In this document: piece after piece, positions 24,145 to 40,600 of the stretch | Layout of the letters: every line of letters starts with the position of its first letter | Position numbering within the stretch: the stretch's first letter is position 1 | Assembly (NCBI RefSeq): GCF_023015765.1 | Contig: NZ_JALKAL010000020.1 | Coordinates: 1-45,231 of the forward strand | Direction: 5' to 3' | DNA: 45,231 bases | Source of the DNA: Ornithinimicrobium sp. F0845 | Lineage (GTDB): Bacteria > Actinomycetota > Actinomycetes > Actinomycetales > Dermatophilaceae | Program-made: the position numbers and the translations under genes | The notes under the pieces: generated by a model | What the model saw: the letters and a program-made list of their open reading frames with translations, nothing else | What the model was told of the DNA's origin: nothing | Database searches by the model: none

Positions 24145-24157
24145 GCACATTCAGTGC
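24145..24157. promoter_or_regulatory. Secondary palindrome GCACATTCAGTGC
   Basis: Arms GCAC/GTGC flank ATTCA, which resembles half of the main operator. It lies 10 bp upstream of the -35 of the plus-strand promoter, where a second regulator dimer could bind. Confidence 0.35.
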
Positions 24158-24166
24158 ACCGACCTC

Positions 24167-24195
24167 TTGACAGAAACATATTGAATGTGTTCAAT
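24167..24195 (+). promoter_or_regulatory. Promoter with 16-bp operator for the monooxygenase operon
   Basis: A perfect -35 TTGACA (24167-24172) is followed at 17 bp by TTCAAT (24190-24195) as -10. The palindrome ATTGAATGTGTTCAAT (24180-24195) covers the spacer end and the -10, the position expected for a repressor. A nearly identical arrangement stands before the opposite operon at 40571-40600. The likely regulator is the FCD/GntR protein at 28526. Confidence 0.7.
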
Positions 24196-24269
24196 ACATT
24201 CATGACCCGAGGCCGGGTCACCGAGTCAATGAGGACACGCGGCTGCGAGTGCCGCTGAGAGGACACGAG

Positions 24270-25910
24270 ATGCTGCCGGACACATCGGAATGGCATGGGC
24301 AGGACACGGATCTCGTTGTGGTCGGGATGGGCCCGGTGGGACTGCTGACCACCATCCTGGCGGCACAGAAGGGCCACCGGGTCGTGGCGATCGAGCGCTG
24401 GCCCACCCCGTACGCCCTGCCGCGCGCGGTCACCTTCGACCACGAGATCGCCCGCATCCTCAACGCCGTCGGGATCGACGCGGAGAACGACCCGACGATC
24501 GACTACTACGACAAGCTCTACTACCTCTACAACGCGGACATGGAGCCTCTCAACGTCATTGACTGGGCCTCCAAGGCGCCCGACGGGTGGCGCAACCGCT
24601 ACTGGTTCGACCAGCCCGGCCTGGAGAAGCGCCTGCGTGTGCTGGCCTCCTCGCTCCCCAACGTCACGATGTTGCAGGGCTATGAGGTGACCGGCCTGGA
24701 GCAGGACGAGGACTCGGTGACCGTGCGCTTCCAGCCGACCGTGCTGAGCGGGGAGGGCACCAGGGTCGAGGACGACGCGACGACCCACTCCGTGCAGGGC
24801 CGGCTCCTGGTCGGGTCCGATGGGGCCAACAGCTTCGTGCGCCGGTCCCTGGGGCTGACGATGACCGACCTTGAGTTCAACTATGACTGGGTCGTGGTCG
24901 ACGTCATCGAGCATGACCAGCACGAGTACGACCCGCCCTACTACCAGGTGTGCAAGCCGGAGCGGCCCTTCACCGTGGTCCCCGGTGGGCCGGGCCGACG
25001 CCGCTGGGAGTTCATGGTGCTGCCCGGGGAGACGGCCGCAGACTTCGAGGCTCCGGCACGGATCTGGGAGCTGCTCGAGGAGTTCGACGTGCGCCCGGAC
25101 AACGCCGACCTGATCCGGTACAAGGTGTGGCGATTCCAGGCCCGCTACCTGGACGAGTGGCGCAAGGGGCGCGTGGCGATCGCCGGTGACGCCGCGCACC
25201 TGATGCCGCCGTTCGCCGGCGAGGGCATGTGTGCCGGCCTGCGTGACGTGATGAACCTGTCCTGGCGCCTGGACCTGATCCTCCAGGGCGTGGCGGACGT
25301 GGACCTGCTGGACTCCTACGGCGCCGAGCGCGGTCCGCACGCCCGGTGGTTCATCGACTTCTCGGTCGGGCTGGGCCAGGTCATCTGCGTGAGCGACCCC
25401 GACGAGGCAGCGCAGCGCGACACCACGCTCATGGCGGCCCTGGCGGAGCAGCTGAAGACTGGTCCCGTCCAGCCCTACGACGCCCGGCTCGGACCCGGTG
25501 CGTGGGACGAGAACTCTCCTGGTGGTGGCTTCCCCAGCTGGCAGGGCGCAGTCGTCCACCAGGGTGTGGTCGGTCGCTTCGACCAGGTGGTGACCCGCGG
25601 GTGGGGGCTGCTCAGCACGCACGACGCGGGTCAGCCCACGCCCGAGTCCCGCGGACTGGTGGAGCGCATGGGCGGCGTCGCGGTGACGGTCGGCCCGCCC
25701 GGGTCCGGCGCTGACGTGCTCGACGTCGATGGCGTCTACGAGTCGTGGTTCGCCGAGCTCGGGGCGGAGCACATCCTGACCCGTCCGGACTTCCACACCG
25801 CGGGGGCCGCCCGCCGCGGTGAGGACGTGGACGCGCTGGTCCGAGCCATCGCGGACAAGGTCCTCTCGCCTGGCCAGCTCGGCGCGTCACCCGCCGAGTC
25901 GATCGCCTGA
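24270..25910 (+). CDS. FAD-dependent aromatic monooxygenase (MhpA/PheA-type), 546 aa
   Basis: Class A flavoprotein hydroxylase that adds one oxygen to a phenolic ring using NAD(P)H. The FAD-binding GxGxxG is GMGPVG at residues 19-24, the DG motif is [15 protein letters not shown], and the second FAD motif [24 protein letters not shown] is intact. A thioredoxin-like C-terminal domain is present (to ~546). ATG at 24270 has GAGAGGA 6 nt upstream. Next to hydroxyquinol dioxygenase and maleylacetate reductase it may make hydroxyquinol from a resorcinol-type compound, but MhpA relatives also act on hydroxyphenylpropionate, and FdeE on naringenin. Confidence 0.92.
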
Positions 25911-25934
25911 CCCGGCGGGGTCGGGGGAGTCAGT

Positions 25935-27062
25935 ATGCAGTTCGTGCACGAGACGCTCGCCCAGCGGGTGCTCCTCGGGTCGGGTCAGGCGGCGACGGCC
26001 GTGGCCGCTGAGGTGGTCCGCCTGGAGCGCCGACGGGTGATGCTGATCCACGGCGTGGCGGAGGCCGCACTCGCGCAGCGGGTGGCCGCCGACCTACCCG
26101 TGACCCTGCACTGGGACGAGGTGCGCCAGCACGTCCCGCTGGAGCTGGCACGACGGGCCCGGATCGCCGCGCGCGACGCCGGTGTCGACGTGATCGTCAG
26201 CGTCGGTGGCGGCTCCACCACCGGGCTGGCCAAGGCGGTCGCGCTGGAGGTCGACGTCCCGATCGTGGCGGTGCCCACGACCTATGCCGGGTCCGAGGCC
26301 ACGCCCGTGTGGGGTCTGACCGACGACGGTGTGAAGTCGACCGGGGTCGACCCCACGGTCCTGCCTGCGGCCGTGATCTATGACGCAGCGCTCACCACCT
26401 CGCTGTCGATCGATCTCACGGTCGCGTCGGGGCTCAACGGGCTGGCCCACTGCGTGGACTCCCTCTGGGCGCCGCGGGCGGACCCGATCAACCTCGCGAT
26501 GGCGCTGGAGGGCGCCCGCGCACTGGCCAGCGGCCTTCCTGCGGTGGCGGCTGAGCCGGAGGACCTCGAGGGGCGCGAGCAGTGCCTCTACGGCGCCTAC
26601 CTCGCCGCCCTGGCGTTCGCCTCCGCCGGCTCGGGCATGCACCACAAGATCTGCCACGTCCTGGGCGGGGGCTTCGACCTGCCGCACGCCCCGACGCACG
26701 CCGTGGTGCTGCCCTACGTGCTGGCACACAACGCCCCGGCCGTCCCGGACCTGGCGGGGCGGCTGGCGCTGGCGCTGGGCGCCACGCAGTCCGGCGTCGT
26801 GGCGGACCCGGCACGCGCGGCGGTCGAGGCGCTGGAGGCCCTGTGCACCGGGCTCGGCGCGCCCGACAGCCTCGGTGGGATCGGTCTGGCCGAGACCGAC
26901 CTCCCGGAGTGCGCAGCGCGGTGCCTGCCGGTGATTCCCGACTCCACCCCGGTGCCGGTGACCGAGGCGTCGCTGACCGCCCTGCTGCGAGCCGCCTGGG
27001 CCGGCGACCCGCCGACCGCACCCGCCCAATCCCACCCCGAGCCGACGAAGGAGTCCTCATGA
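25935..27062 (+). CDS. Maleylacetate reductase, 375 aa
   Basis: Reduces maleylacetate to 3-oxoadipate with NAD(P)H, the step after hydroxyquinol ring cleavage. It is a family III metal-type alcohol dehydrogenase. Seen: GGGSTTG at 91-97 (nucleotide binding), [11 protein letters not shown] at 114-124, [40 protein letters not shown] and a C-terminal helical domain. All are typical of MAR. It lies 24 nt after the monooxygenase gene and overlaps the next by 4 nt. Confidence 0.94.
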
Positions 27063-28087
27063 CTGGCGAGGCCGCCCACACGGCATACCCATCCCCGATG
27101 CCTCCCGAGCGTGCCCCGGGGGATGACGGCACCGAGACCGTGGTCGTCACCGCGGAGCAGGCGGCCCGCGAGCAGGCGCTCGTCGAGCAGGTGATCGCCT
27201 CCTTCGACGGCACGGAGTCGCCCCGGCTGCGGCAGCTGATGCAGGCGCTCGTGCGGCACCTGCACGCCTTTGCCCGCGAGGCGCGACTGACCGAGGCGGA
27301 GTGGGAGGCGGCGATCGGCTTCCTCACCGACGCCGGGCACATCACCACCGACACGCGCCAGGAGTTCGTGCTGCTGTCGGACACGCTGGGGCTGTCGATG
27401 CAGACCATCGCGATCAACAACGAGGCCTATCGCGATGCCACCGAGGCGACCGTCTTCGGGCCCTTCTTCGTCGAGGGGGCGCCGCTGATCAACAACGGCG
27501 AGGACCTGGCGTTCGGCGCGGCGGGCCAGCCCTGCTGGGTCGAGGGGCGGGTCACCGACACGGAGGGTCGCCCCGTCCACGGGGCCCGGATCGAGGTGTG
27601 GGAGGCCGACGAGGACGGCTTCTACGACGTGCAGTATGCCGACGGGCGCACGGCCGCACGGGCCCACCTGTTCAGTGAGGAGGACGGGTCCTACCGGTTC
27701 TGGGGGATCACGCCCACGCCGTATCCGATTCCCTACGACGGGCCGGTCGGCGCGATGCTGCAGGCGGTCGGGCGCTCGCCGATGCGCACCTCCCACCTGC
27801 ACTTCATGGTCTCGGCCGCGCAGTTCCGGACGCTGGTGACACACATCTTCGTGGACGGCTGCGACTACCTGGAGCGGGACTCTGTCTTCGGCGTCAAGGA
27901 GTCCCTGATCAAGGACTTCGCTCTCCAGTCGGCCGGCACGCCGACCCCCGACGGTCGTGACCTCGGGGACCGAGAGTGGGCCAGGGTCCGTTTCGACATC
28001 GTGCTCGCGCCCGCTGCGGGCGAGCGCGAGCAGGACCTGCACCGCGTCGCGGTGCAGGACAGCCGGCAGGAAGGGAAGAGGTCGTGA
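27059..28087 (+). CDS. Hydroxyquinol 1,2-dioxygenase (intradiol), 342 aa
   Basis: Fe(III) enzyme cleaving hydroxyquinol to maleylacetate. The N-terminal dimerisation domain (about 35-130; [26 protein letters not shown]) is typical of the catechol/hydroxyquinol branch. The iron ligands are Tyr212 (SYRFW), Tyr222 ([11 protein letters not shown]), His246 and His248 (SHLHF). The polar N-terminal ~30 residues and the C-terminal ~40 are longer than usual. It overlaps both neighbours by 4 nt (ATGA, GTGA), so the genes are tightly coupled with the reductase. Confidence 0.94.
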
Positions 28088-28476
28088 CCACAGGCGAGCA
28101 GGAGACCACGGACGAGCAGGAGCTGCGTGCGCTCGAGGACGTGCGGTATGAGGCGATGGAGCGCGGGGACGCCGAGGCGGTCGCAGCCCTCTGCCACCCC
28201 GACCTGACCTATGCCCACTCCAACGGTGCGCGGGACACGTTGGCCTCGCTCACGGACAAGATCCGGGACGGTGTCTTTGTCTACGGCCCGATCGAGCACC
28301 CCATCGAGCAGGTGCTCGTGAGCGGCACCACGGGGGTGGTCGTCGGCCAGATGCGGGCACGCGTGGAGGTATCCGGCGACGTGCGGCAGCTGAACAACAC
28401 GGCGGTGGCGGTGTGGACGAGGGAGGCCGCCGGGTGGCGACTGCTCGCCTACCAGCCCACGCCGCTACTGGCCTGA
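28084..28476 (+). CDS. NTF2-like/SnoaL-fold protein, 130 aa
   Basis: A small alpha+beta cone protein (DUF4440/SnoaL_3 pattern: [33 protein letters not shown], then [26 protein letters not shown]). Such proteins can be isomerases, hydrolases or small subunits; no catalytic set is certain here. GTG at 28084 overlaps the dioxygenase stop. Its place in the operon suggests work on a pathway intermediate. Confidence 0.87.
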
Positions 28477-28513
28477 CAGGTGCACAGACGTCAGGGTGGG
28501 CTCTTTCAAAGAA

Positions 28514-28519
28514 TAGGAT
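28514..28519 (+). promoter_or_regulatory. Possible internal leaderless -10 for the GntR gene
   Basis: TAGGAT (28514-28519) ends 6 nt before the ATG at 28526, the leaderless layout; the same bases could instead serve as a weak AGGA ribosome binding site. A separate promoter would let the regulator be made without the operon. Confidence 0.35.
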
Positions 28520-28525
28520 GAACAC

Positions 28526-29197
28526 ATGTCATTGCTCGTGGATGCACCGCGGTCCCTGTCCGCCGAGGTCGCTCAGCGGATCGCGCTGCGCTGCGCCGAG
28601 TTGCCGCCCAACACCAGGCTGGGCACCAAGCGTGACCTCCAGGAGGAGTCCGGCGTCGCCGCAGCCACGCTCAACGAGGCCCTCCGGATGCTGCAGGCGC
28701 AGGGGCTTGTCGCGCTGAAGACGGGGCCGAACGGGGGCGTGTTCACCACGGAGCCGGATCCCCTGATCAGCATCGGGCAGGCTCTCGTCCGGGTGCGGGG
28801 GAGTGCCAAGGTCGCCGAGGTGCTGCCCCTGCGCGATGCCCTTGACCCGCTGACCGTCCTCGAGGCCGCCAAGCACCGCAGCGCCGCCGACCTCCGCCTG
28901 CTCAAGAGCCGGATAGCCCACATGAAGGAGGTCATCGATGACGACACGGCCTTCGCCCGTGCCGTGTGGGACTTCCACCGAGCCATCTGCGGGATCGGCC
29001 ACAACGAGATCCTGAAGTCGGTCTCCCTCGGTCTGCTCGAGGTCATCGTGCAGGGCACCGACGTCGTCGTCACCAAGACGATGGAGCAGAAGTTGCACCG
29101 CGTCGCGCTGCACCAGGCACTCTGCGACGCCATCGAGTCGCGCGACCCGGAGCAGTGTGCCTCCGCCTCCCACGCCCATCGCGTGGAAGAGGGGTGA
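28526..29197 (+). CDS. GntR-family regulator with FCD domain, 223 aa
   Basis: Probable ligand-responsive regulator of the cluster. The N-terminal winged helix (residues ~10-75: TKRDLQEESGVAAATLNEALRMLQAQGLVALKTGPNGGVF) is followed by an FCD domain of helices. Likely metal/ligand residues lie in LRDALDPLTVLEAAKH, DFHRAICGIGHNEIL and the final HRVALHQALCDAIESRD segment. FadR-type regulators bind short palindromes like those at 24180 and 40571. It lies in the plus operon between NTF2-like and CMD genes. Confidence 0.9.
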   Translation: MSLLVDAPRSLSAEVAQRIALRCAELPPNTRLGTKRDLQEESGVAAATLNEALRMLQAQGLVALKTGPNGGVFTTEPDPLISIGQALVRVRGSAKVAEVLPLRDALDPLTVLEAAKHRSAADLRLLKSRIAHMKEVIDDDTAFARAVWDFHRAICGIGHNEILKSVSLGLLEVIVQGTDVVVTKTMEQKLHRVALHQALCDAIESRDPEQCASASHAHRVEEG

Positions 29198-29203
29198 GTG
29201 ACC

Positions 29204-29599
29204 ATGGGCCAGGACTTTGACGACGGCCTCATCATCCGCAAGAAGGTCATGGGCGAGGCGCGGGTCGCCTCGGCACTGGATGGTGCCGACGACTTCAGCC
29301 GTGGCTTCCAGGAGTGGGTCACCGCCTCGTGCTGGGGCGCGGTGTGGGGGCGCGAGGGCCTCTCGCACAAGACCCGGAGCATGATCACGGTGGCCATGCT
29401 GGCCGCTCTCCCGCGGCCCAACGAGCTCAAGCTCCACGTCAAGGGTGCACTGCGCAACGGCGTCACCACCGAGGAGATCCGTGAGGTCCTGATGCAGGTC
29501 GCCGTCTACGCGGGTGCGCCAACCGGCGTCGACGGATTCCGCATCGCGCGCGAGGCGATCGAGGAGTATCAGGCTGAGTCAGGCCCTGCCGCGACCTGA
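29204..29599 (+). CDS. Carboxymuconolactone-decarboxylase-family protein, 131 aa
   Basis: PcaC/AhpD-fold protein. NELKLHVKGALRNGVTTEEIREVLMQVAVYAGAPTGVDGFRIAREAI (residues ~73-120) is the classic CMD core with His78. There is no CxxC, so it is not an AhpD-type peroxidase. No protocatechuate genes are present, so decarboxylation of carboxymuconolactone itself is doubtful; a decarboxylase or lactone-handling step in this pathway is more likely. An in-frame GTG at 29198 is an alternative start. Last gene of the plus operon, converging with the crotonase gene 45 nt away. Confidence 0.9.
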   Translation: MGQDFDDGLIIRKKVMGEARVASALDGADDFSRGFQEWVTASCWGAVWGREGLSHKTRSMITVAMLAALPRPNELKLHVKGALRNGVTTEEIREVLMQVAVYAGAPTGVDGFRIAREAIEEYQAESGPAAT

Positions 29600-29644
29600 G
29601 GGCTGCCTTAGCTGAGCCAGGTCACCACGCTCAACGCGCTGGTG

Positions 29645-30403
29645 TCAGAGGCTGGAGTAGTGCGCCCGGCCGTGGTCCGCGACGCCGCCGTGGACCATCG
29701 ACGCCACGAACTCCTCGACCAGGTCGCCGGCAGCCAGCTCCTCCTCGCGCAGCACCAGCGCCTTGGTGTGGGTGGTGGAGTACTCGACCGTCCGGCTCAG
29801 GTCCTCCCGCAGCGACGCGAGCGCCCCGTCCAGCCCCCCAGCGACGACAACCTCGTCGACGAGGCCGACGCGCAGGCAGTGCGCGGCGTCGAGCCGCCTG
29901 GCGAGCAGGAGCACCGCCCGGGCCGTGGCCGGGCCACCGAGGGAGATCAGCCGTCGGACGGTGAGCCGGTCAGGGACCAGCCCCATCCGGGCGACGGGCA
30001 CCGAGAACTGGGCGTCATCCTGTGCGATGCGCAGGTCGCAGGCCAGCGCGATCTCCGCCCCGCCCCCGGAGACGTGGTGCGACAGCAGGGCGACGGTGAC
30101 CTTCGGGCTGGCTGCCAGAGCCACCAGTGCCCCGGCCACCTCCTGGCAGAAGGCGCGGGCGGACTCGTCGCTGCCGGCGGCCTCGATCACCTCGGGCAGG
30201 TCGGCACCGGAGGAGAAGGTCGTCCCCTCACCCCGGACGACCACGATCCGGACGTGCGGGTCGTCGGCGAGCCCGGTCAGGTGCTCGGTCAGCTGCCGCC
30301 ACATCCTCCGGGTGAGCGAGTTGTGCTTGCCCGGCCTGGAGAGCGTGAGCGTCGCGACCTCCTGGTCCACCCGCAGGAGCACCCTGTCGTCGAGGTCAGT
30401 CAT
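29645..30403 (-). CDS. Crotonase-family protein lacking the second catalytic Glu, 252 aa
   Basis: Enoyl-CoA hydratase/isomerase fold. The oxyanion-hole segment FSSGADLPEV and GGGAEIALACDLR (Glu117, equivalent of Glu144 of rat hydratase) are kept. The second Glu (Glu164, in PEILLG) is replaced: PVARMGL with Val137. A plain hydratase is therefore unlikely; isomerase, hydrolase or hydratase-lyase activity is possible. It overlaps the CoA-transferase gene by 8 nt and is the last gene of the minus operon. Confidence 0.9.
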   Translation of the reverse strand: MTDLDDRVLLRVDQEVATLTLSRPGKHNSLTRRMWRQLTEHLTGLADDPHVRIVVVRGEGTTFSSGADLPEVIEAAGSDESARAFCQEVAGALVALAASPKVTVALLSHHVSGGGAEIALACDLRIAQDDAQFSVPVARMGLVPDRLTVRRLISLGGPATARAVLLLARRLDAAHCLRVGLVDEVVVAGGLDGALASLREDLSRTVEYSTTHTKALVLREEELAAGDLVEEFVASMVHGGVADHGRAHYSSL

Positions 30404-31685
30404 CCTGTGCCTCGCCGTCACGCGCCCGGACGGCCTCCGAAGCCTGCGGTGACGGTGCAGCGGTGCGGAGCCATGCCCTGATCGCCGCGCCGTCCTCATC
30501 GAGCAGCGGGGGCGCCTCGTGCGTGGTGCGGGTGACCTCATCGCCCTGGCCGAGCCCGAAGTAGCGCAGCGGCGGTCCGGGCAGGTCAATGTCGCCGAGC
30601 ACGGGGTGCTCGACGTCGATGACCAGGCCCTGGGACCGGGTCTGGTCCCAGCCGTAGACCTCGGGCATGTTCCGCACCCGACCCGCGGCGATGCCGGCCC
30701 GGTTCATCGTCTCCAGCACGGCCTCGCGGTTCATCGTGGACAGGGCTGCCTCGATCAGGGCGGTCACCTCATCGCGCCGTTCGACCCGCTCAGCGTTGGT
30801 GGCCAGGTCGCCCTCGGGGATCTCGAGCTCCAGGGCGGCACCGAGTGCCCGCCACTGGCGGTCGTTGCCGCAGGCGATCTGGACGGCGCCGTCCTGGCAA
30901 CGGAACAGGCCGTAGGGCGAGATGGTGGGGTGGTGGTTGCCGAACGGCGTCGCCACCTGACCCGCCACGGTCCACCTGGTGCCCTGGAAGGCATGGACGC
31001 CGACGACAGAGGCGAGCAGGGAGGTGCGCACGATCTGCCCGCGGCCGGTGCGCTGGCGCTCGAGCAGCGCGGAGACCACGCCGTAGGCGCCGTACATCCC
31101 GGACAGCACGTCGCTGATGGCCACGCCGACCCTCTGTGGATCCTCAGCGCCGGATCCGGTGATCGACATCAGGCCGGCCTCGCCCTGGGCGATCTGGTCA
31201 TAGCCGGCACGACCGGCCTCGGGGCCGTCGTGGCCGAAGCCCGTGATCGACAGCACGACGAGGCGGGGGTTGAGCTCGTGCAGGCGTTCCTCGTCGAAGC
31301 CGAGCCGTTCGAGCACCCCGGTGCGAAAGTTCTCCACGAGCACGTCGGCCCGCTCGATGAGTTGAGCCAGGACCGCGCGTCCGTCCTCGGACTTCAGGTC
31401 CAGGGCGATGGACTCCTTGTTGCGGTTGCACGACAGGAAGTAGACACCGGTCTCACCCTCGCCGTCCGGGTTGGGCACGAACGGACCCCAGGTCCGGGAC
31501 TCATCACCGTGACCAGGGGACTCCACCTTGATCACGCGGGCGCCGAGGTCAGCCATCATCATCGCGGCGTGCGGGCCTGCCAGGGCGCGGCTGAGATCGA
31601 CCACCAAGGTGCCGGCGAGGGGACCAGCGCCGCCGACGGGAACGGAGGCCGGGGCCTCGGCCGCGGGTTGTGGGTCCGTCGTCAT
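30396..31685 (-). CDS. CaiB/BaiF family (class III) CoA-transferase, 429 aa
   Basis: Moves CoA between carboxylic acids. Seen: VVDLSRALAGPHAAMMMADLGARVIKVESPGHGDESRTWGP, NRNKESIALDLKSEDGR, DVLVENFRTGVLERLGFD, and the nucleophile Asp192 in AISDVLSGMYG. All are typical. ATG at 31685 overlaps the aldehyde dehydrogenase stop (ATGA). It could activate an aromatic or side-chain acid for the crotonase that follows. The acceptor acid is unknown. Confidence 0.93.
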   Translation of the reverse strand: MTTDPQPAAEAPASVPVGGAGPLAGTLVVDLSRALAGPHAAMMMADLGARVIKVESPGHGDESRTWGPFVPNPDGEGETGVYFLSCNRNKESIALDLKSEDGRAVLAQLIERADVLVENFRTGVLERLGFDEERLHELNPRLVVLSITGFGHDGPEAGRAGYDQIAQGEAGLMSITGSGAEDPQRVGVAISDVLSGMYGAYGVVSALLERQRTGRGQIVRTSLLASVVGVHAFQGTRWTVAGQVATPFGNHHPTISPYGLFRCQDGAVQIACGNDRQWRALGAALELEIPEGDLATNAERVERRDEVTALIEAALSTMNREAVLETMNRAGIAAGRVRNMPEVYGWDQTRSQGLVIDVEHPVLGDIDLPGPPLRYFGLGQGDEVTRTTHEAPPLLDEDGAAIRAWLRTAAPSPQASEAVRARDGEAQDD

Positions 31686-33151
31686 GAGAGCTTCACGTTG
31701 ATCTGCTTGATCTGGGTGAAGCCCTCGAGCATGCCCTCCAGTGAGAGCTCGCGACCCACGCCGCTGCTCTTCATGCCGCCGTAGGACTGCCCGACCACCT
31801 GGCCGCCGCCCTGGTTGACCTGCACCCACCCAGAGTCGATCCGGTGCGCGGTGCGCAGCGCGGCGCCCATGTCCTTGCTGAAGACGAACGCGGCCAGGCC
31901 GTAGTGCGAGGCGTTGGCGAGCTGCACCACCTCGTCCTCCTCCTTCCACGGGATCGCGACCAGCACGGGGCCGAAGATCTCCTCCTGCGCGATCCGCCAG
32001 GAGTTGTCGACGCCGGTGAGGATGACGGGGGCATGGAAGAACCCGCTCTCCGGCACGTCGAGGGCCTCGCGACCGTCGTAGGCGACCTGCATCGTCCCGG
32101 AGGTGGTGCCCTCCACGACATACTCCTGCACGCGGTTCCACTGCTTCTCATTGATGATGCAGCCGATGTCGGTGGCCTCCTCGCGCGGATCCCCGACCGT
32201 CAGCTGGGCGACGCGGGCGACCAGCTTGTCCAGGAACTCGTCGTGGATGCTCTCGTGCAGGAACAGGCGCGAACCGGTCGTGCAGGACTGGCTCTGCCGG
32301 GCGAAGCGGCTGGCCAGGAGCACCTGCTCGACGACCTCGTCGGTGCACGAGTCGGGAAAGACGATGCACGGGCTCTTGCCACCCAGCTCAAGGGAGTAGT
32401 GCGCCAACCGGCCGCCCGCCTTGGCGCCGACGCCCTGCCCCACCGGCGTCGACCCGGTGAAGGAGACCTTGTCCACGTCCTCGTGCACGACCAGCGCCTC
32501 ACCGAGCTCGGCGCCATAGCCGGTGAGCACGTTGAGCACACCGGCCGGGAGCACCTCGGCGCAGATCTCACCGAGCCGCAGCACCGAGAGCGGGGCGTCC
32601 TCGGCGGCCTTGACCACCACGGTGTTGCCCGCCACCAGCGCCGCGGGCAGCTTGAACGCCGCGATCATCAGTGGGCTGTTCCACGGCAGGATCGCGGCCA
32701 CCACGCCCAGGGGCTCACGGCGGGTGTACTGCAACTGGTCGTCAGCAGTCGGCAGCGTCACGCCCTTGACCTCACCGGCCAGGCCGGCGAAGTAGCGGAA
32801 GCAGTCCACCAGGGTCCGGGCCTCGGGCCGGGCCTGGGTGCGGATCGCGTTGCCGGTGTCGAGCGCGGTGAGCTCGGCCATCTCCTCCAGGGCAGCCTCG
32901 AGACGGTCCGCGACCTGGAGCAGCAACCGCTGCCGCTCGGGGAACGGCAGTTGAGCCCACGCGGGGAAGGCCTCACGAGCGGCCCGCACCGCGCGATCCG
33001 CATCCGCCTCCCGCCCGCGGGGGACCGTCGCGATCACCTGGGTGCGATCAACCGGGGTGATCACCTCGATGACCTCACCAGCGGCCGCAGCAACCCACTC
33101 GCCACCGATCACCATGCCCCACGTCCTGGGGGAGGCATCCACAGCAGTCAT
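31682..33151 (-). CDS. NAD(P)-dependent aldehyde dehydrogenase, 489 aa
   Basis: Oxidises an aldehyde to an acid. The catalytic Cys290 lies in RQSQSCTTGSRLF, the general base Glu255 in LELGGKSP, and the nucleotide loop is FTGSTPVGQGVG. The C-terminal end QSYGGMKSSGVGRELSLEGM is typical of the benzaldehyde/betaine-aldehyde type. Length is normal. With CoA-transferase and crotonase it could process an aldehyde released from a side chain. It lies 75 nt downstream of livF. Confidence 0.94.
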   Translation of the reverse strand: MTAVDASPRTWGMVIGGEWVAAAAGEVIEVITPVDRTQVIATVPRGREADADRAVRAAREAFPAWAQLPFPERQRLLLQVADRLEAALEEMAELTALDTGNAIRTQARPEARTLVDCFRYFAGLAGEVKGVTLPTADDQLQYTRREPLGVVAAILPWNSPLMIAAFKLPAALVAGNTVVVKAAEDAPLSVLRLGEICAEVLPAGVLNVLTGYGAELGEALVVHEDVDKVSFTGSTPVGQGVGAKAGGRLAHYSLELGGKSPCIVFPDSCTDEVVEQVLLASRFARQSQSCTTGSRLFLHESIHDEFLDKLVARVAQLTVGDPREEATDIGCIINEKQWNRVQEYVVEGTTSGTMQVAYDGREALDVPESGFFHAPVILTGVDNSWRIAQEEIFGPVLVAIPWKEEDEVVQLANASHYGLAAFVFSKDMGAALRTAHRIDSGWVQVNQGGGQVVGQSYGGMKSSGVGRELSLEGMLEGFTQIKQINVKLS

Positions 33152-33226
33152 CTTTCGTGTCCTTTGTCTTGAAGGGTCGGGGAGAGGTATGCCGGATGGC
33201 CGGGTGCGTCGCCCTGGCCGGGGGCG

Positions 33227-33931
33227 TCACATGGCCAGGTAGGCCTCGCGCACGGCGGAGGAGCCGAGCAGCTCCTCGCGCGTGCCGGAGAGTGCGAGGG
33301 TGCCCTGCTCCAGCACATACCCACGGTCGCAGATCTCGAGGGTGCGTGCGACGTTCTGCTCGACGACGAGCACGCCGATGCCCATCTCGTGCACCCGGAC
33401 GATGAGGTCGAACATGTCGTCGACGATGATCGGGGCCAGGCCCAGGGACGGCTCGTCCATCAGCAGGTAGCGCGGGCGGGCCATCAGCGCACGGCCGATC
33501 GCCACCATCTGCTGCTGCCCGCCGGAGAGCGTGCCGGCCTTCTGGTCCCGGCGGTCGTGCAGGATCGGGAACAGGTCGTAGACCGTCTGCTGGAGCGCCC
33601 CGATCTCGGACCGGTCGTCCAGCGAGTACGCCCCGAGCTTGAGGTTCTGGGCCACGGTGAGCTGGTTGAACAGCATCCGCCCCTCGGGCACCAGCGCGAT
33701 GCCTTCGCCGACCACCTTGTGGGAGGCCAGCCTCTGCAGGGGTGCGCCGTCCAGCAGGACCTGCCCGCTGCGCGCGGGGATGATCCCGGCCATCGTGTTG
33801 ACCAGGGTGGACTTGCCCGCGCCGTTGGCGCCGAGCACCGCGACCACCTCGCCCTGGTCCATCGTGATGGAGATGTCCTCAAGTGCCCGGGCCTCGCCGT
33901 AGTAGACCGACAGGTCGGTGACCTCAAGCAT
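33227..33931 (-). CDS. livF: Branched-chain-type ABC transporter ATPase LivF, 234 aa
   Basis: Second ATPase of the importer. Walker A GANGAGKST (34-42), LVPEGRMLFNQLTVAQNL, signature LSGGQQQM and Walker B LLMDEPSLGLAP all match LivF. The ATG at 33931 overlaps livG by 8 nt. HAAT-family importers often carry aromatic acids in catabolic clusters. Confidence 0.95.
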   Translation of the reverse strand: MLEVTDLSVYYGEARALEDISITMDQGEVVAVLGANGAGKSTLVNTMAGIIPARSGQVLLDGAPLQRLASHKVVGEGIALVPEGRMLFNQLTVAQNLKLGAYSLDDRSEIGALQQTVYDLFPILHDRRDQKAGTLSGGQQQMVAIGRALMARPRYLLMDEPSLGLAPIIVDDMFDLIVRVHEMGIGVLVVEQNVARTLEICDRGYVLEQGTLALSGTREELLGSSAVREAYLAM

Positions 33932-34652
33932 GCTGGCTCCCCAGGTAGGCGTCGATGACAGCTTGGTCGGACAGGACGGTCGCGGGGTCGCCCTCGGCGA
34001 TCTGCTGGCCGGACTGCAGGACGAACAACCGGTCGCACAGCCCCTTGACCGCCCGCATGTTGTGCTCCACGAAGACGACCGCGATCCCGAGGTCCCGGAT
34101 GCTCTTGATGAGCTCGATGGCACCCTCGATCTCGGTCGGGTTGAGCCCGGCCAGGACCTCGTCGAGCATGATGAGCCGCGGCTCGCAGGACAGGGCGCGG
34201 GCCAGCTCCAACTGCTTGCGCTGGTGGAGCGTCAGGCTCTCCGCGGCGTCGTCCGCCTGGTCTCCCAGGCCGACGAACTCGAGCCACTGCATCCCCGTGG
34301 TGCGGGGGTCCCGGTCCGTGCGCGCACGGCCGAAGGAACCGCCGACCATGACGTTTTCCAGGGTGCTGAGCGTGGAGAACGGCCGGGGGATCTGATAGGT
34401 GCGGGCCAGCCCCAGCTCGGCGACCCTGTGCGGTGCCAGGGTGTCGATCCGGGTGTCGCCGAAGTGGATCTGACCGCCGCTGGGCCGGAGGAATCCGGAC
34501 AGCACGTTGATCATCGTCGACTTGCCCGACCCGTTGGGCCCGACCAGGCCGAGGATCTCGCCGTCGCGGACGCTCATGGTGACCTGGTCCAGGGCGCGCA
34601 GGTTGCCGAAAGTCTTCGTGACGGCATCAGTGCGCAGGATGTCGGTGCTCAT
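33924..34652 (-). CDS. livG: Branched-chain-type ABC transporter ATPase LivG, 242 aa
   Basis: First ATPase of the importer. Walker A GPNGSGKST (38-46), ARTYQIPRPFSTLSTLENVMVG, a degenerate signature LTLHQRKQLELARAL as usual in LivG, and Walker B LIMLDEVLAGLNP. The ATG at 34652 has AGGGG upstream and overlaps the livM stop by 4 nt. It is coupled to livF downstream. Confidence 0.95.
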   Translation of the reverse strand: MSTDILRTDAVTKTFGNLRALDQVTMSVRDGEILGLVGPNGSGKSTMINVLSGFLRPSGGQIHFGDTRIDTLAPHRVAELGLARTYQIPRPFSTLSTLENVMVGGSFGRARTDRDPRTTGMQWLEFVGLGDQADDAAESLTLHQRKQLELARALSCEPRLIMLDEVLAGLNPTEIEGAIELIKSIRDLGIAVVFVEHNMRAVKGLCDRLFVLQSGQQIAEGDPATVLSDQAVIDAYLGSQHA

Positions 34653-35827
34653 CTGGGCTGCCCCTCTCGCGATCGGTTGACGAGGCGTGCCCACCAGGCG
34701 TCCGGCACCACCAGCACCACGATCATCGCCAGGAGGGCAAAGAGGAGGGCACCGATGAAGCCGCCGCCGAGGCCGGTGACCAGGAGCACCAGCAGCACGC
34801 CGAGGAAGGTGATCAGCCCGGCCCGCGGCCGTCGCTGCCAGCGCTCGTGGATGCCGCCCTTGAGGCCGACGATCACCACGACGAGCAGCAAGCCGGTGAG
34901 CAGCTGGGACAGCTCGGTCATGCCCAGGCCGGTGAGGCGGTCGCTGAGGGAGAACATCAGGACAGCGCCGATGACCGGGCCGGCCCAGTGCCGGCGGCCG
35001 CCGACCAGTGCCATCAGCACGACCATGACCGAGACGTCGATGCCGAAGGTGGCCTCGGGCTCGATGAAGGAGATCATCACCGCATTGAGGGCACCGCTGG
35101 CGCCGCCGATCGCGGCCGCGAGCACCAGGGCGATCATCTTGTAGCGGAAGGTCGGGACCCCCATGGTCTCGGCGACCCGCTCGTCATCCCGGATCGCGAA
35201 GAGGCCCAGGCCCAGCCGGGACCGCTGCACCAGGGCGGCGGCGACCACGGCGACCACGGCGAGCAGCAGACCGAGATAGTAGAGCATCTCGTTGACCGAG
35301 CCGAGGAACTCCGGATAGGTCACCATGCTCACCATCAGCACGCCGCCACCGCCGATGGCGTCGACGTTGCGCACCAGGACACCGATGGCGATCGCCAGGG
35401 CGAAGGTGAACAGGGCGAAGATCTCGTGGGCCAGACCACGGTGGAAGATGACGTAGCCGATCAGCGCGGCCACGACGGCCGCCGCGAGCGCCCCACCGAG
35501 GATGGCGACGAAGATGTTGGGATCACTCTCGCGGGCCAGGTTCGCCGTGACGTAGACGCCGGCACCGTAGAAGATGGCGTGCCCGAAGTTCAGGTAGCCG
35601 GAGAAGCCGCTGAACAGGTTCCAGGCGCTGGCCTGGGTGACCCAGAAGAACAGCGTGTAGCCGAAGACGATGAGGTAGGCATCCAGCCCCAGGCTCTCCT
35701 GGAGCGTCGGCAGCGCGGCGAGACCGATGACGAGCACCAGCAGCACGCCGGGGGTCGTCCAGCGGCGGGCGGCGTTGTCGGTCGGGCGGGTCGGTGCCTC
35801 GGGGGCGCGGGTCTGTGTGGCGGTCAT
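34649..35827 (-). CDS. livM: Branched-chain-type ABC transporter permease LivM, 392 aa
   Basis: Membrane permease with about nine to ten hydrophobic segments. GYLNFGHAIFYGAGVYVTANLA and the cytoplasmic loop GLFAIRDDERVAETMGVPTFRYKMIALVLAAAIGG are hallmarks of LivM. Two extra hydrophobic helices after ~340 (LITFLGVLLVLLVTGLGGGF and following) extend the C-terminus beyond the usual ~330 residues. The ATG at 35827 overlaps the livH stop by 4 nt. Confidence 0.94.
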   Translation of the reverse strand: MTATQTRAPEAPTRPTDNAARRWTTPGVLLVLVIGLAALPTLQESLGLDAYLIVFGYTLFFWVTQASAWNLFSGFSGYLNFGHAIFYGAGVYVTANLARESDPNIFVAILGGALAAAVVAALIGYVIFHRGLAHEIFALFTFALAIAIGVLVRNVDAIGGGGVLMVSMVTYPEFLGSVNEMLYYLGLLLAVVAVVAAALVQRSRLGLGLFAIRDDERVAETMGVPTFRYKMIALVLAAAIGGASGALNAVMISFIEPEATFGIDVSVMVVLMALVGGRRHWAGPVIGAVLMFSLSDRLTGLGMTELSQLLTGLLLVVVIVGLKGGIHERWQRRPRAGLITFLGVLLVLLVTGLGGGFIGALLFALLAMIVVLVVPDAWWARLVNRSREGQPR

Positions 35828-36705
35828 CGCTCGCTCACCTCCACGGTGGGTCGGAACAGCCCGGAGGGCTTGAACAGCAGGACGATCACCAGGATCCCGA
35901 GGGCGACCAGCTGGGCCAGCGAGGGATCGGCGAACTGCCGGGTGAAGGACTCCGCGAGTGCCAGGGCGGTGGCGGAGATGGCCACCCCAACCGGGTTGGC
36001 CAGGCCGCCCAGCAGCACCACGGCCAGCGTGACCGGCACCCAGATCAGTGCCGAGGCGGGCGAGAGGGCATAGAGGATGCCGATCATCGACCCGGCGATG
36101 GCGACCGACACCCCGCTGATCGCGGCGATCAGGTAGCCCAGACGCGTGGCGTCGATCCCGAAGGCCCGAGCCATCGTGGGGTTCTCGACACTGGCGCGGA
36201 TGGCATAGCCGGCCCTGCTGCGCTGCAGGAGCCACCAGCTGAAGCCGCACAGGGCGACCGCGGCGACCAGGCCCAGGATCTGCACCACCGGCATCGTGTA
36301 CGGACCGACCGACAGCACGTTGGACAACCAGGGGTTGTTCTCCGTGGGGATGCGGCGCAGGTCCTGCAGCCAGTACCTGGAGATCGCGGCCTCCAGGACC
36401 AGCAACAGACCGAATGTCGCCACCAGGGTGCCGAACATGTCGAGCTTGACCTTGGAGACGAACCACTGCAGCCCCAGCGACAGGGCGACACCGATCGGGA
36501 CTGTCGCCACCAGGGTCAGCAGCGGGTCGAACCCGTGGACGGTGGACAGCTCATAGGTGACATAGCTCGCCAGCAGCGCAAAGCCGAAGTGGGCGAAGTT
36601 GATGGTGCGCAGCAGTCCCCAGGTGAGGGAGAAGCCGAGGCTCAGCGTCGCATACAAACCGCCCAGCAGCAGCCCGGTGATCAGGGCCTGTATCCATTGC
36701 TGCAT
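35824..36705 (-). CDS. livH: Branched-chain-type ABC transporter permease LivH, 293 aa
   Basis: Membrane permease with about eight hydrophobic segments. ITGLLLGGLYATLSLGFSLTWGLLRTINFAHF at the N-terminus and IRASVENPTMARAFGIDATRLGYLIAAISG (the ATPase-contact loop) are typical of LivH. Length is normal. It lies 83 nt after the binding-protein gene. Confidence 0.95.
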   Translation of the reverse strand: MQQWIQALITGLLLGGLYATLSLGFSLTWGLLRTINFAHFGFALLASYVTYELSTVHGFDPLLTLVATVPIGVALSLGLQWFVSKVKLDMFGTLVATFGLLLVLEAAISRYWLQDLRRIPTENNPWLSNVLSVGPYTMPVVQILGLVAAVALCGFSWWLLQRSRAGYAIRASVENPTMARAFGIDATRLGYLIAAISGVSVAIAGSMIGILYALSPASALIWVPVTLAVVLLGGLANPVGVAISATALALAESFTRQFADPSLAQLVALGILVIVLLFKPSGLFRPTVEVSER

Positions 36706-36788
36706 CGCAGTTCCTTTCCCGCGCGCAGGGCGCGTCCGACGTCGGGCCGGACCGGGTGAGCGGCCCGGCCCGACGACGGCTGTCGCCT

Positions 36789-38063
36789 CTAGTTGATGGT
36801 CGTGCCGTCGGCCGTCTTGTCAGCCGGGTAGACGACCGTGAACTCGCCGTCCTGGATCTGCTTGATCGCGACCAGGTCGCCGTAGTAGTTGTTCTGCTCC
36901 GGGTCGAAGTCGATCTCGCCGAGGACGGTCTCGATCGAGTTGTTGACCAGGTAGTCGGCGATCTCGCCCTGGTCGAGGCTGCCGGCGCCCTCGACCCCGG
37001 CAGTGATGGTCTGCCACGTCGCCCAGGACAGGCCAGCCTGCATCTCGGCCACCGCGTAGGGCAGGCCTGCCTCCTCCGCAGCGGCGGTGAACATCTCGGA
37101 CACATCCTGACCGCCCTCGAAGGAGAGATAGGGCTCCTGCGGCTCGTAGAGCGTGGTGCTGGTCGCTCCCTCAGCCACCTCACCGGCGCCGAGCAGCAGA
37201 CCGGGAGCGGGGAAGAGGTGGAACTGGTGGCGCGGCTCCCAGCCGATCTGAGACAGTGCGGCCAGCAGCGCCGGAGAGTCGCCACCGAGGGCACCCACCC
37301 ACAGCAGGTCGGGGTCGGCGTCCTTGATGCGCTGGGCGATGGGGCCCCAGTCGGTGTTGCCCTGCGGGAAGTCGACCTCGAGGACGACGTCCAGGCCCCT
37401 CTCCTGGGCCACCTGCACCGAGCCGGGCGCGTCCTCGTGGCCGTGCGCGATGAAGTCGGTCGCCGGGTTCTGGTTGACCACGAAGCCGACCGTCTGCGGT
37501 GCCTCGTCGGCCAGCTCCGCATAGGCATCGAAGATCGTCTCTGAGACGGTGCGGCTGGAGTCGATCCCGCTGGCGAACAGCGGGAAGTGCCGGTCGTAGT
37601 CATAGGCGTAGGTGAGGGTGGCCGAGTGCTGCGGGAAGACCATCTCGTTGCGCTCGGCGACGTCCATCGCCGCGGTGATGTTGGCCGTGCCGTAGGGGCC
37701 GATCAACAGGTCGACGTTCTCCTGCGAGATCAGCCGGTTGTAGGCCGCGGCTGAGGTCTGCGGGTTGCTCTCGTCGTCGAGCAGGACCCACTCGACCTCG
37801 CGGCCCAGCAGGCCGCCGTTGTCGTTGAGCCACTCGACATACTGCTCGCCGGCTAACCGGTGGATCTCACCGGTGGCGGCCAGCGGCCCGCTGAGCGCGA
37901 GGGTTCCACCGACCCGGATGGGGTCCTCGGAACCGCCGGCGTCGGAGCCGCCGGTGCTGCTGTTGCCGTCGGTGCCACCGCTGGAGGTGCCACACGCGGC
38001 GAGGATGAGGCTGAGGGCAGCGATGCTGCCGAGGGTTGAGAAGGCACGCGAGTTCTTCTTCAT
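36789..38063 (-). CDS. Branched-chain-type ABC transporter substrate-binding lipoprotein, 424 aa
   Basis: Periplasmic-binding fold type I (Peripla_BP_6). The ATG at 38063 has AAGGA 9 nt upstream; the signal peptide MKKNSRAFSTLG... ends in lipobox LAAC, Cys24, then a Ser/Gly linker. IRVGGTLALSGPLAATGEIHRLAGEQYVEWLND and LLIGPYGTANITAAMDVAERNE mark the ligand-binding lobes. In this catabolic context it probably binds the growth substrate or an aromatic acid. It has the operon's first transporter position. Confidence 0.93.
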   Translation of the reverse strand: MKKNSRAFSTLGSIAALSLILAACGTSSGGTDGNSSTGGSDAGGSEDPIRVGGTLALSGPLAATGEIHRLAGEQYVEWLNDNGGLLGREVEWVLLDDESNPQTSAAAYNRLISQENVDLLIGPYGTANITAAMDVAERNEMVFPQHSATLTYAYDYDRHFPLFASGIDSSRTVSETIFDAYAELADEAPQTVGFVVNQNPATDFIAHGHEDAPGSVQVAQERGLDVVLEVDFPQGNTDWGPIAQRIKDADPDLLWVGALGGDSPALLAALSQIGWEPRHQFHLFPAPGLLLGAGEVAEGATSTTLYEPQEPYLSFEGGQDVSEMFTAAAEEAGLPYAVAEMQAGLSWATWQTITAGVEGAGSLDQGEIADYLVNNSIETVLGEIDFDPEQNNYYGDLVAIKQIQDGEFTVVYPADKTADGTTIN

Positions 38064-38152
38064 TGAAGCAATCCTTTCGGGGCGGGCGGCAAGGGGGAAG
38101 CCGCCCGGGGTCACGCGGTGGATGTCACGGGGGAGTTGCTGGTGCGGAAGGG

Positions 38153-38992
38153 TCAGAGCTCGGAGGCGATGTCCGCGCGGTCGACGATGGGGTTGCGCAG
38201 GACACCGATGGTGCTGAGCTCCACCTCGACCACGTCACCGGGGTTGAGATAGCGCGGCGGGGTCTGGCCCAGGCCGACACCGCCGGGGGTGCCTGTGGCG
38301 ATGACGTCACCGGGCAGCAGAGTGATGGTGTCGGTGATGTAGGCGATGATGTCCTCGATCGAGAAGATCAGGTCGCGGGTGTTGGCGCTCTGCATGGTCT
38401 CGCCGTTGACCCGGGACTGGATCTCCAGGTTGTCGACGTCCTCGATCTCCTGCGGAAGGAACAGGGCCGGGCCGATCGGACCGCTGCGGTCGGCATTCTT
38501 GCCCAGTGCGAACTGGGTCGTCGCCAGCTGCTTTGCGCGAGCGCTCAGGTCGTTGAACGCCGCGTAGCCCAGGACGTGGTCGCGCGCACTGGCCCTGTCG
38601 GCCAGCCACACCTTGTCCTTGATGACGACGGCGAGTTCGGCCTCCCAGTCCAGACCCTCGTTGGGCGGGACGGGCACCTTCGTGCCGTTGGTGACCAGGG
38701 TGGAGGGCCAGCGACCAAAGACCATCGGGAACTTGGGCAGGTCCTGGCCCGCCCCGCGCTTGGACTCCTCGGCGTGGGAGTGGTAGTTGATGCCCACGCA
38801 GAAGACCCGTGCGGTCTCGGGGATGAACGGGGCCTCGGTGATCTGGTCACGTGGGATCCCCTCGCCGGCGCGGGTGACCCTGGTCGTCGGGTTCTTGTAG
38901 AAGTCCGCGACGGTGGCGACGGGGTAGACGGTGTCGTCCTCAAGCTCGCCGATGTGACGGACGCCGTCCTGGACATAACCGATGAGAGGCAT
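38153..38992 (-). CDS. Fumarylacetoacetate-hydrolase-family enzyme, 279 aa
   Basis: Metal-dependent hydrolase, hydratase or decarboxylase acting on ring-cleavage products. Seen: FCVGINYHSHAEESK, DWEAELAVVIKDKVW (metal-binding Glu pair), GYAAFNDLSARAKQ, and ATGTPGGVGLGQTPPRYLNPGDVVEVE. These are the standard FAH motifs. The ATG at 38992 has GGAAAGAG upstream. Downstream of the extradiol dioxygenase, it may act on the meta-cleavage product; no separate alpha/beta meta-cleavage hydrolase is present. Confidence 0.93.
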   Translation of the reverse strand: MPLIGYVQDGVRHIGELEDDTVYPVATVADFYKNPTTRVTRAGEGIPRDQITEAPFIPETARVFCVGINYHSHAEESKRGAGQDLPKFPMVFGRWPSTLVTNGTKVPVPPNEGLDWEAELAVVIKDKVWLADRASARDHVLGYAAFNDLSARAKQLATTQFALGKNADRSGPIGPALFLPQEIEDVDNLEIQSRVNGETMQSANTRDLIFSIEDIIAYITDTITLLPGDVIATGTPGGVGLGQTPPRYLNPGDVVEVELSTIGVLRNPIVDRADIASEL

Positions 38993-39024
38993 GCGTAATC
39001 TCTTTCCGTGTGTGGGTAGTGGGG

Positions 39025-39558
39025 TCAGGCGGTGGGGAGAGTGGCGCGCACGGCCTGCCGGCCGCGCAGGATCGGCGGCACCGCCGCGACCAGAGCCACG
39101 GCGACCGCGATGGTGCCCCGCAGCAGCGGCTGGTCGTCCAGCGGAAGGGACAGGCGATCGTCGAGCGCGATCGTGCCCGGGCCGAGGAAGCCGAGGGCGG
39201 CGATCACCAGGGCGATGAAGAACGGGTACTCGCCGCCGCCGGCGGCATTCCAGAAAGTGCCCTTGAGCTGGGTCAGCGAGGAGCCGGCCACGAGCATCGT
39301 GCCCACTCCGACGGCGACGCCCAGTGGCACCAGGAGGCCGAGGAGCAGGCTGACCGCAGCGGCCATCTCGCACGTGGCCGCGAGATAGACCATGGCCCTG
39401 CCCGGGCGCTGTCCGAGGAGCTCAAAGAGCTTGGCTGAGGCCTCTGGCCCCGAGCCCGAGAACCAGCCGAGCAGCTTCTGGGTGGCGTGGGCGAACAGGA
39501 TGAGCGCCAGGCCCACACGCAGGATGAGAAGGCCGAGGTCGACCGAGGTGACGTCCAT
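39025..39558 (-). CDS. DoxX-family membrane protein, 177 aa
   Basis: Four or five hydrophobic helices with LGLLILRVGLALILFAHATQKLLGWF at the start and the DoxX core (GVAVGVGTMLVAGSSL; GGGEYPFFIALVIAALGFLGPG). DoxX proteins appear in respiratory and redox operons with varied roles. Its position between dioxygenase and FAH genes suggests an accessory redox or quinone-linked role, which is inference. Confidence 0.88.
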   Translation of the reverse strand: MDVTSVDLGLLILRVGLALILFAHATQKLLGWFSGSGPEASAKLFELLGQRPGRAMVYLAATCEMAAAVSLLLGLLVPLGVAVGVGTMLVAGSSLTQLKGTFWNAAGGGEYPFFIALVIAALGFLGPGTIALDDRLSLPLDDQPLLRGTIAVAVALVAAVPPILRGRQAVRATLPTA

Positions 39559-39567
39559 GGCTCGGGG

Positions 39568-40479
39568 TCAGGCGGAGTGGCTGGACTCGGGGGCCAGGCC
39601 AGTGAAGTGGTCGACCCACTCGATCGGGGGGAGTGCCCCCCACTGGTTGACCACCTTGTAGTTGGACAGGTTCTCGCCCGGGTCGACCACGCGGGGCTCC
39701 ATGTAGTCGTCGTGGATGATCTCCATCTCGGCGGTGCACTCCAGCAGGAAGTCGGCCGAGTTGAGGAAGTAGAGGAAGAGGTTGTCACCGGCGCCGTGGC
39801 GGCCCGGACCCCACACGAGGCGACGGTCCTCGGGGATCAGCGCGTCGGCCAGGCCCTTGAAGTCCTGGAAGGAGTGGTACTCCCAGCTGGTGTGGTGCAG
39901 ACCGGCGCCGTCGCTCTTGACCACGGCGACCGTGTGGTGGCGGCCGTCGGCGGCGCGCATCCAGGAGATCTCGTGCCCGGTGGTGCGCTCGCTGAGCAAC
40001 AGGCCACAGCTCGCGTTCATCTCGTGGGCCCACAGTGCAGGATCGGCCGCGGTGAAGTTGACGTGATCGACCGCGCGGGGACGCAGTCCGGGGCCGGCGT
40101 ATCGGCCGGGGCGGTCGTTCGGCATCGGGGTGTGCACCTCGAAGACGTGACCCTCGGAGGTGGCGAAGGTGATCGACTTCTGGATCGCGGCCCGCGACGG
40201 GACGTCACTGACGATCTCCAGGCCGGCGGCCTGCACCCGACGCTTGACCTCGTCGATGGCATCGGGGCTCACGGCCTCCAAGCCACAGACCGAGTGCACG
40301 TTGGCCTCGCCCTTGTGGATGATGTACTCGGCGTGCCGCTGGTTGGACGACATCAGGATGCTGTCACCCTCACGCCCCACCTCCCGGGCACCGATGTTGT
40401 TGGCGGTGTCCTCTGCGACACGCTCGGGGTCGGTCGCATAGACGGACATGTATCCCAGCCGCTGCACGAGTGGCTTCAT
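39568..40479 (-). CDS. Type I extradiol (VOC) ring-cleavage dioxygenase, 303 aa
   Basis: Two VOC modules; the second is catalytic. Candidate Fe(II) ligands are His139 (VDHVNF), His195/196 (LHHTSWEY) and Glu247 (LLECTAEME). His228 (GRH) and Tyr237 (LFLYF), ten residues before the Glu, match conserved active-site residues of the BphC/XylE class. The ATG at 40479 has AGAGGT 8 nt upstream. First gene of the minus operon, directly behind the promoter/operator at 40571-40600. The substrate is a catechol-type compound, identity unknown. Confidence 0.9.
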   Translation of the reverse strand: MKPLVQRLGYMSVYATDPERVAEDTANNIGAREVGREGDSILMSSNQRHAEYIIHKGEANVHSVCGLEAVSPDAIDEVKRRVQAAGLEIVSDVPSRAAIQKSITFATSEGHVFEVHTPMPNDRPGRYAGPGLRPRAVDHVNFTAADPALWAHEMNASCGLLLSERTTGHEISWMRAADGRHHTVAVVKSDGAGLHHTSWEYHSFQDFKGLADALIPEDRRLVWGPGRHGAGDNLFLYFLNSADFLLECTAEMEIIHDDYMEPRVVDPGENLSNYKVVNQWGALPPIEWVDHFTGLAPESSHSA

Positions 40480-40570
40480 CTCGAGGTACCTCTTCCTTGA
40501 GGGCAAGTGCGGTTGCGCCTGCTGCTGTGACTCTGGGTCGCCGGGGGTCGCTCTCGACCCGGATGGATAC

Positions 40571-40600
40571 ATTCAACACATTGAATCGTCGGATTGTCAA
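40571..40600 (-). promoter_or_regulatory. Promoter with 16-bp operator for the dioxygenase-transporter operon
   Basis: On the minus strand TTGACA (40600-40595) is followed at 18 bp by TTGAAT (40576-40571). The palindrome, read on the minus strand as ATTCAATGTGTTGAAT (40586-40571), covers the -10. The centre AATGTGTT is shared with the operator at 24180-24195 and the arms are ATTC/GAAT variants. The start codon is 92 nt downstream. Confidence 0.7.

Follow-up and report, generated by a model that had tools for sequence, protein, structure and literature searches.

A predicted operator shared by two converging catabolic operons of Ornithinimicrobium sp. F0845 and the FCD/GntR regulator encoded between its copies

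Contig NZ_JALKAL010000020.1 of Ornithinimicrobium sp. F0845 (assembly GCF_023015765.1; positions 1 to 45,231, the whole stretch analysed here and referred to as the window) carries two catabolic operons that run towards each other and meet at 29.6 kb, each starting behind a TTGACA hexamer and a short palindrome, with the gene for an FCD/GntR-type regulator (28526..29197, plus strand) lying between the two sites. This arrangement, described in a first-pass annotation and borne out by the gene positions, raises the question of whether a single regulator controls both operons. The analysis suggests that the product of this gene, the 28526 protein, is probably a repressor of both, acting through the sequence ATTSA-N6-TSAAT and released by a compound of the pathway. 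The idea of one regulator for both operons, part of the same annotation, thus gains comparative-genomic support, but the site of the right operon was found without any ortholog.

Operator sites, promoters and the motif of the relatives

The two sequences that had been pointed out, a TTGACA with a 16-bp palindrome in each case, are present at 24167-24195 (plus strand) and 40600-40571 (minus strand). In front of the left (hydroxyquinol) operon the putative -35 hexamer TTGACA (24167..24172, plus strand), which is kept in the congener G110, is followed after 7 nucleotides by operator 1, ATTGAATGTGTTCAAT (24180..24195, plus strand), and in front of the right operon the putative -35 TTGACA (40595..40600, minus strand) is followed after 8 nucleotides by operator 2, ATTCAATGTGTTGAAT (40571..40586, minus strand), so that the position relative to the -35, said to be the same, is off by one base. 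Both sites consist of two 6-bp arms around TGTG, the plus-strand site extending to 7+4+7; the arms are palindromic, as had been noted for the whole element, but the TGTG centre is not. The arms read ATTGAA on the left and ATTCAA on the right, a single difference at half-site position 4 through which a TTGAA element is inverted in one site and everted in the other. The best -10 coincides with the right arm in both cases, TTCAAT at 17 nucleotides (left) and TTGAAT at 18 nucleotides (right) from the -35, each with 4/6 matches, and two of the three TTGACA copies on both strands of the window (70% GC) stand at these operators.

Of 30 further genomes in the genus, G110 alone has the regulator (E<=1e-25); in it the left operon, the coenzyme A (CoA)-transferase gene and the hydratase gene form one block elsewhere on the chromosome. 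There the orthologous operon, with a regulator 77% identical to the 28526 protein, is preceded by TTGACA-N7-ATTGAATAGGTTCAAT: the arms, the -35 and the spacing are kept, and the centre and most flanking bases have changed. As the arms of this ortholog (ATTGAA/TTCAAT) are identical and its centre is altered to TAGG, the arms are conserved rather than the core AATGTGTT, which had been taken for the shared recognition sequence; in outgroup sites the centre is CATG or another sequence, and the core was dropped as a recognition element.

More distant relatives, at about 33-43% identity to the 28526 protein, were also collected, and a motif search upstream of 13 of them, with the window and G110 excluded, gave ATTCATCATGATGAAT as the best 16-mer palindrome, with a log-likelihood of 128.5 against 23.3-28.4 in five shuffled sets (mononucleotide shuffles, with 15 restarts against 40 for the real set). 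The weight matrix built from these outgroup loci alone ranks the right window operator first (19.0 bits) and the left one second (16.5 bits), the next best site in the 45 kb scoring 4.9 bits, and it ranks the G110 operator first in 34 kb (12.4 bits, next 7.2). When each locus was left out in turn, near relatives also being removed for six loci, the region upstream of the regulator contained the highest-scoring site of the entire locus in 11/13 loci, the misses being L021, where the upstream site came third, and L040, where none was found. The recognition helix of L040 reads GRATVSEA, and that of L089, likewise without a site, GRATISEA.

With the score of the G110 site (12.4 bits) as cutoff, a site was detected, upstream of the regulator or of its operon, for 14/14 regulators with a GTK...(N/A)EAL helix, a count that includes the window and G110 and otherwise consists of the 12 that trained the matrix; the site of L022 drops to 12.1 bits when left out of training. 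Among other FCD regulators, L098 left aside, three of 16 had such a site (L032, L091 and L092), those of the Deinococcus plasmids L091 and L092 being ATTGAGTATACTCAAT and ATTGAGTGTACTCAAT upstream of the FCD gene, with identical arms and a GT-AC centre. In L091 and L092 the FCD genes adjoin acyl-CoA dehydrogenase genes. A glycine-rich wing (GPGGG) was also considered as a predictor of the site and rejected, as L096, L097, L099 and L101 lack a site despite their GP-GG wings; the recognition helix appears to fit better. The GTK...(N/A)EAL branch occurs in several actinobacterial families, often beside genes of aromatic catabolism, and 8/12 outgroup loci (L044 left out) have a relative of the fumarylacetoacetate hydrolase (FAH), the flavin adenine dinucleotide (FAD)-dependent hydroxylase or the CoA-transferase no more than about 2 kb from the regulator. 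At position 4, the 24 outgroup half-sites have C in 16, G in six and A in two, with C and G together in L038, so the branch appears to tolerate the difference between the window's arms, and the right site fits the branch better than the left. Upstream of the regulator of G504 (L038, 9053-9088) there is also a long inverted repeat, CTGCTATTCATCAT...ATGATGAATAGCAG, that overlaps two registers of the motif.

Exact ATTSA-N6-TSAAT occurs at these two places only in the assembly (4,198,449 bases, 59 contigs), and the many unrelated copies across the genome that had been named as grounds for giving up the idea were not found. The pattern WTTSAATGTGTTSAAW, derived from the sites themselves, matches twice in the window with up to three mismatches against 0.10 expected, and 0/100 shuffles had two matches. 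A scan of genome contigs with the single regulator sequence returned one locus. That the palindromes arose by chance or serve another role, the promoters being unrelated, is a very improbable explanation: AT-rich promoter DNA can yield short AT-rich palindromes, and the control locus L032 has an 18-bit site without explanation, but even one site of 16.5 bits appeared in just 1/200 first-order Markov copies of the window, the G110 site is conserved despite diverged flanks, and of the three TTGACA hexamers in the window two accompany the sites.

A scan of 342,106 bases of control DNA gave five hits of at least 12.4 bits (L011, L013, L032 twice and L033), of which L011 and L013 had been fetched because of the motif and L032 and L033 are alphaproteobacterial plasmid DNA. 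The motif was rejected as a general feature of the family: exact matches to WTTSAAYRYRTTSAAW were found at 11 loci in 11/185 other family genomes, and no FCD relative was detected at any of these loci (L008-L018, 0/11) in the 1.8-3.0 kb retrieved per locus, so that these palindromes probably belong to something else. Among the same loci, a different recurring palindrome, TTTGAACRYGTTCAAA, was seen in seven family genomes and TTTCAACGCGTTGAAA in two.

The candidate regulator and competing explanations

The 28526 protein has a GntR domain (PF00392, 30.6 bits, cutoff 27) and an FCD domain (PF07729, 65.1 bits, cutoff 24.3), and remains below the NCBIfam equivalog cutoffs for NanR (77.0/260), LldR (44.7/311), PdhR (44.6/330) and FadR (26.2/189); its best-matching solved chains are those of NanR (6on4, E=2.8e-13) and PdhR (9jpj, E=9.5e-9). 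Aligned by eye with GVTRTTLREVL, which we take to be the recognition helix of FadR, the corresponding stretch of the 28526 protein (GVAAATLNEAL) has Ala and Asn at the positions of Arg45 and Arg49. In published FadR-subfamily regulators the recognition-helix arginines read the site, Arg45 making a specific contact to a G (PMC4494728, PMC7797058), and sites of the FadR subfamily are usually TKGT-N2/3-ACMA with a conserved centre and a varying periphery, NanR and BioR being named as exceptions (PMC4494728). Read by eye, GT-N2/3-AC is absent from both window sites and from the G110 site, and the description of an ordinary FadR-type site thus had to be given up. The missing TKGT/ACMA boxes together with the missing recognition arginine suggest an FCD regulator branch whose operator departs from the usual form. 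Regarding earlier descriptions, a literature search with six exact operator strings returned only an unrelated chloroplast paper, and among the papers listed for GntR together with hydroxyquinol, resorcinol, FCD or FAH none describes this regulator-operator pair in its title or the opening of its abstract, supplementary site tables lying outside the search.

A different regulator, for example of the MarR or TetR type, encoded elsewhere in the genome could own both sites, and operators of the MarR type can have similar arms. The absence of the boxes known from FadR-subfamily operators would agree with this explanation, but it is improbable, since the motif recurs across several families upstream of FCD regulators of this branch, where it was found without using the window, and no further exact copy exists in the genome.

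For the 28526 protein as repressor, the following mechanism is proposed. A dimer would bind ATTSA-N6-TSAAT just after the -35, covering the -10 of both promoters, and once bound would exclude RNA polymerase from the left and the right operon; a pathway acid or phenol in the FCD pocket would release it, so that both operons would switch on together. The FCD effector domain suggests that a small acid or phenol of the pathway would be the releasing compound, and as its own gene lies within the left operon the repressor would also limit itself. We infer the binding, the repression, the effector and the reading of the right site by the same protein from sequence.

The right site is the point at which a further explanation has to be weighed, in which the FCD regulator controls the left operon only and another regulator reads the right site (ATTCAA...TTGAAT), which would have arrived with the extradiol/transporter module. 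The arms of the two sites differ at position 4, G110, despite retaining the genes for the CoA-transferase and the hydratase, has an exact site at its left operon alone, and on Paracoccus and Haematobacter plasmids extradiol-like relatives accompany an FCD regulator with a classical helix. However, the matrix of the relatives of the 28526 protein scores the right site above the left, C is the base at position 4 in two thirds of the outgroup half-sites (16/24), the right site has the TGTG centre of the left one and a promoter position equal within one base, and the Pfam scan found no regulator gene in the right operon. This division of control is therefore unlikely, though less so than the explanations considered above. 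The scan, which covered 30 of the window's open reading frames, detected NrdR as the only other DNA-binding regulator and left 4/30 without a family.

Several observations weigh against common control by the 28526 protein. Its binding to the sites is a prediction, repression is preferred over activation from position only, and the promoters are unproven, given their weak -10 elements and a consensus promoter scan of 23500-41000 that returned 0 promoter-like sites, a scan which demands an A at -10 position 2 that is absent here. The first gene of the right operon, encoding the extradiol-dioxygenase-like protein, was found at E<=1e-40 as the strain's own copy alone among 186 family genomes, and at E<=1e-60 as this copy and that of G504 in a sample of 396 order genomes, and the 15,000 bases around the G504 gene contain nothing with fewer than two mismatches to ATTSA-N6-TSAAT. 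As neither the right operon nor its site turned up in any other genome searched, there is no phylogenetic footprint specific to this site, and its reading by the same protein rests on similarity, position and uniqueness. Allowing one mismatch, ATTSAANNNNTTSAAT adds one place in the strain's own genome (C1:9406), and G110 has two further one-mismatch sites elsewhere. In 10 copies of a random 4.2-Mb sequence of window composition, a smoothed matrix gave 14 hits at the score of the weaker site and two at that of the stronger, so the score alone is no proof of function. The GTK...(N/A)EAL branch was delimited by eye after the sites had been seen, held-out regulators alone give 2/2 (window and G110) against 3/15, and L032, L091 and L092 outside the branch have matching sites too, so that the branch does not have the motif to itself. 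Common control by the 28526 protein nevertheless remains the favoured reading, and what began as a guess from raw sequence has become a specific, testable regulator-operator pair, with an operator predicted for a branch of actinobacterial FCD regulators.

The island and its surroundings

The 16-kb block is probably an island for the breakdown of aromatic compounds, with hydroxyquinol as an intermediate being the firm part of the pathway assignment. The left operon (24270 to 29599, plus strand) begins with an FAD-dependent aromatic hydroxylase of an MhpA-like subfamily (24270..25910; Pfam PF01494; NCBIfam NF004829, 556.7 bits, cutoff 390), followed by an iron-type alcohol dehydrogenase (25935..27062), assigned by Pfam to this family only, with no NCBIfam equivalog reaching its cutoff, and probably a maleylacetate reductase in view of the neighbouring dioxygenase. 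The latter is a hydroxyquinol 1,2-dioxygenase (27134..28087, start approximate; Pfam; PDB 1tmx, E=2.1e-135). Further downstream, Pfam identifies a SnoaL-like/DUF4440 protein (27976..28476, start not fixed), the proposed repressor, which was also placed by alignment of relatives, and a carboxymuconolactone decarboxylase (CMD)-family protein (29198..29599).

The right operon is read on the minus strand from about 40.5 kb down to 29.6 kb. Its first gene encodes the extradiol-dioxygenase-like protein of the VOC superfamily (39568..40479), a weak assignment (Pfam glyoxalase 20.8 bits, cutoff 20.6; NCBIfam TIGR03211 65.4/320.2 and TIGR02295 65.1/321.4). It is followed, all by Pfam, by a DoxX-family protein (39025..39558), an FAH-family protein (38153..39080, start approximate), a branched-chain-type ATP-binding cassette (ABC) transporter with two ATPases, two permeases and a binding protein (33227..38114), an aldehyde dehydrogenase (31682..33151), a family III CoA-transferase (30396..31650, start approximate; 81% in G110) and an enoyl-CoA hydratase family protein (29645..30451, start approximate), whose gene adjoins the left operon in G110. 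Relatives of the extradiol-like protein, 57% identical, are present on a Paracoccus plasmid (L032, 10.3-15.3 kb) and a Haematobacter plasmid (L033, 10.7-15.3 kb), in each case with an FAH gene and the classical-helix FCD regulator; the 18-bit site of L032 lies in an intergenic region.

Regarding the location of the island, homology of congeners to the window ends at 24082-24088 and resumes at 40733-40798, and the interval between cox and nrdR, about 16.6 kb here (24089-40730), is about 1 kb long in G110 and, in G112 and G122, consists of about 5 kb of different DNA. The differing spacing and the homology that stops and resumes around the island place it in an interval that appears to be a variable spot in the genus, and both operators lie just within the island ends. 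In G135, a gene for an 84% identical aldehyde dehydrogenase lies directly upstream of nrdR, and the other island genes are absent from the 19.5 kb fetched.

The divergent cox operon, named by the first-pass annotation as a possible further target, starts with a coxS-like small subunit (23526..24005, minus strand), so named from its translation, its position and its general appearance; this gene begins about 175 bp away from the left operator. G110, G112 and G122 keep cox (85-87% nucleotide identity up to window positions 24082-24088), and the sites listed for the stretch from cox to nrdR in these three congeners do not exceed 3.8 bits. Control of cox is thus not supported, and cox is left out of the proposed regulon, though a new effect on it in this strain is conceivable.

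As to how this arrangement arose, there is an even chance that an actinobacterial FCD/GntR branch lost the arginine read-out of the classical FadR site and came to read the outer arms, ATT(S)A...T(S)AAT, of a 16-bp palindrome while the centre drifted, and that in this genome the second, separate extradiol/transport module was joined by gaining a site in the cox-nrdR insertion hotspot. The locus would show how two ring-cleavage modules can come under a common switch within one island, and it offers a natural test of how the DNA specificity of FCD proteins changes once the usual recognition arginine is lost.

Comparison with known systems

The 28526 protein shares with FadR, PdhR, LldR and NanR of the FadR subfamily the GntR winged helix, the FCD domain and a short palindromic operator at nearby promoters; unlike them, as far as PMC4494728 describes the subfamily, it has neither TKGT-N2/3-ACMA nor Arg45/Arg49, and the arms are conserved and the centre variable. 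Atu1419 of Agrobacterium fabrum, a VanR-group FCD repressor of hydroxycinnamate genes, likewise controls an aromatic catabolic region and has palindromes over the -10, but its palindrome is 10 bp long and has a guanine that is contacted by Arg45, a residue missing here (PMC7797058). HypR of Streptomyces coelicolor is likewise an actinobacterial repressor of the FadR subfamily with a site covering the -10, but its motif, CTNTGC(A/C)ATGTCAC, is unlike the present one (PMC6608401). Actinobacterial resorcinol/hydroxyquinol operons share with the left operon an aromatic hydroxylase and a hydroxyquinol 1,2-dioxygenase, and probably a maleylacetate reductase. As far as is known, operons of this type are under TetR- or other-type regulators, whereas here the regulator is of the FCD type and an extradiol-like module is proposed to be under shared control.

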